This document shows positions 20,631-22,763 of a stretch of 64,000 bases of DNA, one piece after another; positions within the stretch are counted from its first letter, which is position 1, and each line of letters starts with the position of its first letter. Source of the DNA: an uncultured Bryobacterales bacterium (GTDB lineage Bacteria > Acidobacteriota > Terriglobia > Bryobacterales > UBA6623); assembly GCA_951813065.1 (NCBI GenBank), contig CATOTH010000009.1, positions 124,001 to 188,000 on the forward strand, written 5' to 3'. Under the pieces are notes generated by a model. The model saw only the letters and a program-made list of their open reading frames with translations. It was not told where the DNA came from and made no database searches. A program made the position numbers and the translations under genes.

Positions 20631-21599
20631 TCAGGGAATCAGCAAGAGCTTGCCCATTGTTTTGCGCCCCGCAAGCCTCGATTGGGCTTCGGCCGCATCG
20701 CTCAGGGGAAACTCGCCACCCACGGTGACATTGAGATCGCCCGATTCGATCCAATTGAGAATGTCTGACGTCCGCCAGCTGAACTCCTCGTCGGTTGCGA
20801 TGTAGGCCATCATCGAAGGCCGCGTGACGAACAAAGAACCCCGTTTCGTCAGCTCCAGGGGTGCGAATGGCGGGACAGCCCCGCTGGCATTGCCGAACGT
20901 CACCATCATGCCCCGGGGCTTGAGGCTGTCCAGGCTCCCGGTCCAGGTTGACTTGCCGACCGAGTCGTATACCACGTCGACTCCCTCACCGTCGGTCAAG
21001 CGGCGGCACTCGCTGGAGAAATCCTGTTGGGTATACAGGATGACCTCGTCGGCGCCGGCCTCTCTCGCCTTGGCGGCTTTCTCCTCCGTCGAGCATGTTC
21101 CGATGACACGGGCCCCGAATTTCTTCGCGATCTGAACAATCAGCAGGCCTGTACCGCCAGCGCAGGCATGGACCAGAGCTGTATGGGACTCGCCGAGTTC
21201 GAAAGTCGACCGCGTCAGGTAGTGTGCCGTGCCGCCCTGCAGCATCGACGCGGCAGCCACCTTGGTTGTAACGCCGTTCGGCAGTTTCACCAAGCGCTTC
21301 GCGCCGGCGATGGCATACTCGGCGTACGAGCAGTGCGGCTGCAACAGGGCTACGCGGTCTCCGGGACGGACGTCGCGGACGCCTTGGCCGACGGCAGCGA
21401 CGGTTCCCGCGCCTTCCTGTCCGTTTGTGAATGGAGGTTTAGCCGGATACAGGCCCGTGCGGAAGTAAATATCGATGAAATTGACGCCGGAGGCATCGAT
21501 CTTGACGAGCGCTTCGCCCGGCCCTGGTTCGGGGACGGGCACGTCTTCGTAACTGAGCACCTCGGGTCCGCCGTGCTCGTGGATGCGAATAGCCTTCAT
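20631..21599 (-). CDS. NADPH:quinone oxidoreductase, zinc-independent MDR family
   Basis: This 322-residue cytosolic protein has the medium-chain reductase layout. The GroES-like N-terminal half includes GVNFIDIYFRTGLYP, where the Cys of zinc alcohol dehydrogenases is absent. The Rossmann NADPH site is HACAGGTGLLIVQIAKKFGA, followed by VVYDSVGKSTW and LAGRKTMGKLLL at the end. Relatives reduce quinones by one electron. The ATG at 21599 is chosen because the extra 17 residues upstream are not family-like. It is transcribed divergently from the dehydratase gene across only 21 bp. Confidence 0.92.
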   Translation of the reverse strand: MKAIRIHEHGGPEVLSYEDVPVPEPGPGEALVKIDASGVNFIDIYFRTGLYPAKPPFTNGQEGAGTVAAVGQGVRDVRPGDRVALLQPHCSYAEYAIAGAKRLVKLPNGVTTKVAAASMLQGGTAHYLTRSTFELGESHTALVHACAGGTGLLIVQIAKKFGARVIGTCSTEEKAAKAREAGADEVILYTQQDFSSECRRLTDGEGVDVVYDSVGKSTWTGSLDSLKPRGMMVTFGNASGAVPPFAPLELTKRGSLFVTRPSMMAYIATDEEFSWRTSDILNWIESGDLNVTVGGEFPLSDAAEAQSRLAGRKTMGKLLLIP

Positions 21600-21620
21600 C
21601 ACGGGTACTATAGCAACGGG
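21600..21620. promoter_or_regulatory. 21-bp divergent start region with shared, self-complementary -10 element
   Basis: CTATAG at 21608-21613 is its own reverse complement. On the minus strand it reads TATAGT (21612-21607), a good -10 element, and the predicted start falls at the ATG of the quinone oxidoreductase gene (21599). On the plus strand TACTAT (21606-21611) would start transcription about 2-4 bases before the ATG at 21621. Neither side has a convincing -35 element or Shine-Dalgarno. Confidence 0.45.
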
Positions 21621-22763
21621 ATGCGCATCCGCAGCGTCGACGCCGTCCATCTGCGGACGACCCTGGAACGGCCTTTTTCCTTCTCGCAGTTCTCGTACAC
21701 AGACCGCGAGACGATGCTGGTGAAGGTAGCGACTGAGGACGGTCGCACCGGTTGGGGCGAGGCGTACGGCCCGGCCGCAATCACCGCCGCGACCGTCCGG
21801 GAGTTTCTCGGTCCAATGATCGTTGGTCGTGATCCCGGGGCGGTCGAGTCGCTGTGGGCGTCGATGTACGCCCGCTCGATCGACTACGGCCAGAAAGGCG
21901 TCTTGATTGCGGCCATGTCGGCTCTCGACATCGCCTGTTGGGATCTCAAGGCGCAGGATGCGGGGGTGCCCCTGTATAGGCTGCTCGGCAGCGAGCCCGT
22001 GGAGTCCATCGAGTGCTACTGGACGGGCTTCTACTTCGGGGGCGAGGAGCCTCTGGAATCACGGTGGGAGCGCGAGGCCGAAGAGTGTATTGATCAAGGG
22101 TTTCATGCCGTGAAGATGAAGGTCGGGCTGGGTGTTGAGCGGGACGCGGAGCTAGTCGGCATGTTGCGCGGCTTCGTCGGTTCCGGATGCAATCTCGCGA
22201 TCGACGCAAACCATGCCTACTCCCCCATCGAGGCGATCGACCTTGCCCGCCGTGTAGAGCCACATAACATCCACTGGTTCGAGGAGCCTGTGTCGCCTCT
22301 GGATGCGCAGGCTTACCTGGATGTCAAGGCTGCCACGAACATTCCGCTGGCCGGAGGAGAGTGCGAGTACACGAGGTTCGGATTCCAGAAGTGGTTCGAT
22401 GCCCGTGCGCTGGACTACGCGCAACCCGATGTGTGCGCCTGCGGCGGGATCACCGAGTCGATGAAGATCGCCACCCTGGCTTCGCTTGCCGGCATTCACG
22501 TCACGCCCCATGTGTGGGGATCCGCAATCGGCCAAGCCGCCGCGCTGCACTTCTACGCGGCGCGGCCGCGGCAGCCGTTCACGCTGACCCCGGAGGCAAA
22601 GCTCATAGAGTGCGACCGGACCGAGAATCCGTTTCGGACCGAGATCGTCGAAACCCCCATCGGATTGGACGGAGGCTGCTGGCATTTGCCGGAGGCAGCG
22701 GGCCTCGGCATCGGCGTGGTCCCGGAGCGGTTCGAACCCTATCTCGTCGGCAGGGTCTCCTGA
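21621..22763 (+). CDS. Mandelate racemase/muconate lactonizing enzyme family dehydratase
   Basis: This 380-residue enolase-superfamily enzyme is cytoplasmic and Mg-dependent, abstracting the alpha proton of an acid sugar or similar acid. It shows the KxK base motif in HAVKMKVGLG, metal ligands in AIDANHAY, HWFEEPVS and AGGECEY, and a C-terminal base region HVTPHVWGSAIG with a conserved His. The frame is open upstream for almost 600 bases but those residues are antisense to the oxidoreductase gene; the ATG at 21621 gives the standard N-terminus. Likely activities are acid-sugar dehydratase or cycloisomerase. Confidence 0.9.
   Translation: MRIRSVDAVHLRTTLERPFSFSQFSYTDRETMLVKVATEDGRTGWGEAYGPAAITAATVREFLGPMIVGRDPGAVESLWASMYARSIDYGQKGVLIAAMSALDIACWDLKAQDAGVPLYRLLGSEPVESIECYWTGFYFGGEEPLESRWEREAEECIDQGFHAVKMKVGLGVERDAELVGMLRGFVGSGCNLAIDANHAYSPIEAIDLARRVEPHNIHWFEEPVSPLDAQAYLDVKAATNIPLAGGECEYTRFGFQKWFDARALDYAQPDVCACGGITESMKIATLASLAGIHVTPHVWGSAIGQAAALHFYAARPRQPFTLTPEAKLIECDRTENPFRTEIVETPIGLDGGCWHLPEAAGLGIGVVPERFEPYLVGRVS

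Follow-up and report, generated by a model that had tools for sequence, protein, structure and literature searches.

A compact divergent gene pair with a putative shared -10 element in an uncultured Bryobacterales bacterium

Introduction

How could two divergent genes both be transcribed from a spacer of 21 bp? The question is raised by a locus in an uncultured Bryobacterales bacterium (genome size 5.59 Mb), for which the original prediction invoked one symmetric -10 element, CTATAG, serving both strands. A 2021 paper by Warman is reportedly the founding study of bidirectional bacterial promoters with a shared -10. Here we consider whether the spacer fits such a promoter, whether its features are kept in relatives, and whether the arrangement occurs at other gene pairs. 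Positions refer to the window, that is, the whole 64,000-nucleotide stretch of DNA analysed. Based on sequence comparisons, we think it likely that the spacer is a minimal bidirectional promoter for the housekeeping sigma factor, giving leaderless or near-leaderless messages, and that it is recurrent in the family of the host.

Results

The locus and its two genes

The spacer, CACGGGTACTATAGCAACGGG, is the entire intergenic interval 21600-21620 and is flanked exactly by two ATG codons, at 21599 (minus strand) and 21621 (plus strand), which confirms the predicted 21-bp gap. The genes are as follows.

20631-21599, minus strand: QOR, a zinc-type dehydrogenase resembling NADPH:quinone reductases, 322 aa, start MKAIRIHEHGGPEVL
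21621-22763, plus strand: MR, a member of the mandelate racemase / muconate lactonizing (enolase) superfamily, 380 aa

Both starts were chosen by a composition-only gene finder that uses no upstream signal, and for either protein the alignments with relatives begin at residue 1. QOR is assigned from Pfam ADH_N, ADH_zinc_N and ADH_zinc_N_2 and its start is conserved; the closest NCBIfam models are PRK10754 and the PIG3 family, both scoring under their own cut-offs. MR carries Pfam MR_MLE_N and MR_MLE_C and is sugar-acid dehydratase-like, the closest NCBIfam models being arabinonate/galactonate dehydratases (again under their own cut-offs). Named sequences related to MR at 62-78% identity come from metagenome-assembled genomes of Bryobacterales, Terriglobia or Acidobacteria, which points to a Bryobacterales host.

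A putative symmetric -10 element and the starts it predicts

CTATAG lies at 21608-21613, and the -10 hexamers of the two strands are TACTAT (21606-21611, plus) and TATAGT (21612-21607, minus). We place each predicted +1 at 7 nt past the last -10 base, which gives the following features.

21606-21612, both strands: shared symmetric -10, TACTATA (TANNNTA), with reciprocal -11A/-7T, in 10/10 same-genus pairs
21606-21611, plus strand: rightward -10 hexamer TACTAT, 9 nt 5' of the MR ATG, spacing identical in 10/10 same-genus pairs
21607-21615, minus strand: leftward extended -10, TGC-TATAGT, 7 nt 5' of the QOR ATG, with TGN-TANNNT in 8/8 distinct same-genus spacers
21618 (+/- 2 nt), plus strand: predicted MR transcription start, 3-nt leader
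21600 (+/- 2 nt), minus strand: predicted QOR transcription start, 1-nt leader

The predicted starts are thus separated by 18 bp on opposite strands, with reciprocal pairing between the -11A and -7T of one direction and those of the other, as in the 18-bp bidirectional class. Eighteen bp is described as the commonest bidirectional spacing because the -11 and -7 positions of the two directions then pair (PMC10268837), with spacings of 10 and 23 bp also common (PMC12825309). An A start with -18T opposite was not found, 21600 being C and 21618 being G on the plus strand; this is a preferred feature only, described as usual and not obligatory in the 18-bp class (PMC10268837), and a predicted start may move by 1-2 nt. 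TANNNT begins close to the 12 nt before the start codon that is typical of leaderless genes, its first T falling at -15 for MR and -13 for QOR, and a Shine-Dalgarno sequence is absent from the window spacer in both directions. A conventional sigma-70 promoter was also considered, and a scan of 21300-21950 for a -35 plus a -10 found none, so the case for a promoter is built on the -10 element.

Given that the spacer is just 21 bp long and that -10 hexamers are loosely defined, AT-rich bases might occur by chance in a GC-rich spacer between genes that are close by accident. Across the 2.29 Mb analysed, TANNNTA occurs at 0.0003 per site, so that a 21-bp spacer, with its 15 positions, would be expected to hold approximately 0.005 occurrences. 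Together with the conservation and recurrence described below, this leaves coincidence as the least probable of the explanations we considered, to the point of being barely credible.

Conservation of the spacer in relatives

We examined 14 QOR-MR loci (the host and 13 relatives), in 12 of which the genes are divergent and adjoining. Ten of these 12 have compact spacers of 21-26 bp, and all ten belong to one genus (Bryobacterales, Acidobacteriota). The expected conservation of the spacer in related genomes was borne out: the distance from TANNNTA to the MR ATG is 8 nt in every compact pair, giving a predicted MR leader of 3 nt in all. For QOR the predicted leader is 1 nt long in the host and 5 or 6 nt long in the other nine. 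The proposal of nearly leaderless messages on both sides therefore holds for the host, and in the relatives the leftward message strictly has a very short leader rather than none. The one GGAG found in the spacer of a second genome (G008) sits upstream of the -10, where transcription would miss it.

The unit of conservation is not the one originally proposed. All nine other same-genus orthologues have TATTCTA and lack CTATAG, which is peculiar to the host genome among the genomes compared. We therefore rejected CTATAG as the functional unit; the idea of one -10 shared by both strands fits the conservation, the spacing and the genome-wide statistics once the unit is taken to be TANNNTA.

Nine of the ten compact pairs were compared for divergence and fall into five lineages, five of the nine forming one close cluster that is not independent. 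Between the five lineages, four-fold third positions agree at 0.31-0.44 (near saturation), and the 17 spacer bases adjacent to MR agree at 9-15 of 17.

Between divergent genes, operators frequently have palindromic sequences. The short palindrome could accordingly be a site for a transcription factor, with the promoters of both genes further upstream. There is no clear dyad symmetry past TANNNTA, the three inner bases in the relatives (TTC) are non-symmetric, both flanking genes encode enzymes and not regulators, and the 7-mer is present at other, unrelated gene pairs as well (see below). We consider an operator very improbable.

Two other genera have more open spacers, of 136 bp (G014) and 102 bp (G013), in which the QOR -10 is still found 11 nt 5' of the QOR ATG. 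In these the base needed only for the rightward direction is changed (CATTCTA and CATTGTA, respectively). More generally, the QOR -10 is followed by A, corresponding to a rightward -12T, in 10/10 compact pairs vs 0/7 other genomes of the family (Fisher 1.2e-4 for 10 vs 6, the seventh genome having been counted later; given the relatedness of the genomes, the value is not strictly a probability). At the distance from MR seen in the compact pairs, G013 has TACGCT, 9 nt 5' of the ATG; no equally clear counterpart was found before MR in G014. The QOR -10 occurs across the family, including where MR is absent; in one genome of the host family (G001), nothing matched QOR at the threshold applied.

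This last distribution would suit a one-way promoter, in which the site is the extended -10 of QOR only and MR is read from a promoter inside QOR or by weak leakage from the opposite strand. The TGN extension points the same way, being leftward in 8/8 and rightward in 0/8 distinct same-genus spacers. Such a promoter would not explain why the rightward-only base is kept in the compact pairs and missing elsewhere in the family, nor the constant distance on the MR side, nor an MR gene that is not preceded by a Shine-Dalgarno sequence, and we judge it unlikely, although less so than an operator or coincidence. The bidirectional reading remains the one that we prefer.

Recurrence at other compact divergent spacers

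The layout had been regarded as strikingly compact, and it is not a one-off, since it recurs at other gene pairs of the same genome. Among host spacers of 17-30 bp, TANNNTA is present in 4/9 divergent, 0/31 convergent and 1/49 tandem cases (Fisher 2.5e-4); QOR-MR is one of the four, and 3/8 remain when it is removed. Three of the nine divergent spacers border a gene with weak support (scores 9-11), and all three are without TANNNTA. At the same length, G008 has the element in 2/4 divergent, 0/10 convergent and 0/17 tandem spacers, the two being the QOR-MR orthologue and NupG-RecX, which is also the orthologue of a host case. When the two genomes are pooled, TANNNTA is found in 6/13 divergent spacers, with 0.53 expected from shuffling. 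Control symmetric 7-mers in the nine host divergent spacers gave 2 (AT...AT), 0 (TT...AA) and 0 (AA...TT). All gene starts in these and the other genome-wide statistics are those of a composition-only gene finder written for the analysis, and the names LigA, DagK, NupG, RecX, TVP38, HD and dipeptidase were read from protein sequences, not obtained by family search.

Besides QOR-MR, two host pairs have TANNNTA conserved in orthologues. For ligA/dagK-like genes, the element (TATTATA or a variant) is present in 11/15 adjacent pairs from six genera; the remaining four have spacers of 32-44 bp if the left start is read long, and for one of these a reading of 17 bp is also possible. For TVP38 and a hypothetical gene it is present in 10/12 pairs, nine of which have spacers of 16-18 bp when read short; in the two lacking it, the spacer is at least 157 bp with the longer left-start reading, and one of these can also be read as 10.

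In the host, the ligA-like and diacylglycerol-kinase-like genes are separated by a 22-bp spacer with TATTATA (G000:C1:377571-377592; L121, 17571-17592), an element that other genera of the family retain. The TVP38-like and hypothetical genes are separated by 18 bp with TATCATA (G000:C9:635611-635628; L097, 15611-15628), and relatives have TATTCTA in the same place.

Two further pairs were set aside as cases of a shared element. NupG-RecX is weak, being compact with the element in 3/10 adjacent pairs and having a leader of 9-11 nt on the RecX side. HD-dipeptidase has a 22-26 bp spacer with TANNNTA in 0/11 genomes, and only the dipeptidase -10 is fixed. In its own right, the dipeptidase-like gene (G000:C1:283322-283346; L117, 3322-3346) has TACAAT, TAGAAT or TATAAT close to its start within the genus of the host, at a near-fixed distance; the same holds in most other genera, where the gene has other neighbours.

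Two observations concern divergent genes more broadly. In G000 and G008, divergent spacers of 61-120 bp contain TANNNTA in 14/43 cases, with 5.95 expected from shuffling; thus, shared -10 elements may serve longer divergent spacers too. Elsewhere in the host, a single 785-aa frame (G000:C9:515949-518306; L091, 15949-18306) has a TTG start 20 bp from a divergent gene. Its sequence suggests a fusion of a Kdo transferase with a lipid A 4'-kinase (LpxK).

A genome-wide class of genes with TANNNT

Genes preceded closely by TANNNT form a class in the host. In the 1.49 Mb analysed, close operon followers apart, 140/887 genes have TANNNT starting at -17 to -12, compared with 72, 54, 53 and 41 (mean 55) in four equal windows further upstream; among close operon followers it is 11/245. 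The class avoids genes with a Shine-Dalgarno sequence, the two features occurring together in 10 genes where 29.7 are expected. In G008 the counts are 64/426 genes with TANNNT, and 3 with a Shine-Dalgarno sequence as well (12.8 expected). The net excess amounts to ~9% of these genes, near the mean of 13.3% leaderless-type genes given for Acidobacteria in a genome survey, where such genes are reported in 3/3 genomes (range 9.7-19.4%; PMC3160421).

Discussion

If the spacer works as we suspect, RNA polymerase would bind TACTATA in either of two orientations. Leftward, it would use the extended -10 TGC-TATAGT and begin QOR at about 21600; rightward, it would use TACTAT and begin MR at about 21618. 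The starts would lie 18 bp apart because the -11A/-7T contacts of each orientation base-pair with those of the other. Both messages would start 0-6 nt 5' of the start codon without a Shine-Dalgarno sequence, and given such short leaders both are probably translated by the leaderless route. Since a single polymerase can occupy the site at any one time, QOR and MR would compete for initiation. QOR is predicted to be the stronger direction, given the TGN on its side, and transcription of MR from the spacer may be weak, given that the rightward direction lacks both TGN and a -35-like hexamer.

A broader proposal, on which we are evenly divided, is that Bryobacterales have a recurrent architecture of divergent pairs in which a single TANNNTA core makes up the whole 16-30 bp spacer, yielding two leaderless mRNAs and forcing competition for one polymerase site. 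The ligA/dagK-like and TVP38/hypothetical pairs would use it as well, and pairs would leave it as the spacer opens.

We found no start-site map for the acidobacterial lineage of the host in the open-access literature searched. If transcripts confirm the predicted starts, this would be about the smallest arrangement for the divergent expression of two genes, with ~7 conserved bases and without untranslated leaders. Such a layout would couple promoter symmetry to leaderless translation, add an uncultivated acidobacterial lineage to the known range of both phenomena, and offer a comparative view of a bidirectional promoter appearing and dissolving through one base and the length of a spacer.

No new principle is involved, given that the bidirectional geometry, leaderless genes in Acidobacteria and a divergent leaderless pair are all already known. 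What appears to be unreported in the open-access literature searched is a spacer consisting only of a shared -10 and its two flanks, in which both phenomena are fused, and which is recurrent and conserved in one lineage. In Mycobacterium tuberculosis, where closely juxtaposed divergent promoters are called common, prpD (Rv1130) and Rv1129c form a divergent pair with both messages mapped as leaderless, as is predicted for QOR and MR; unlike the case made here, the legend describing that pair makes no statement of one shared -10 (PMC3898074). The leaderless (TA-led) genes of the genome survey have TANNNT ~12 nt 5' of the start, to which the 13 and 15 nt seen here, without a Shine-Dalgarno sequence, are similar; the survey handles genes singly, and its main text has 0 occurrences of "divergent" and "bidirectional" (PMC3160421). 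Conversely, the available text of one study of bidirectional promoters has 0 occurrences of "leaderless" (PMC12825309). The locus shares with the promoters described by Warman, Grainger and colleagues a symmetric -10, reciprocal -11A/-7T and opposite-strand starts 18 bp apart, here predicted (PMC12825309, PMC10268837). Unlike those promoters, as far as the available text of these papers describes them, its putative promoter core takes up the entire interval from one start codon to the other.
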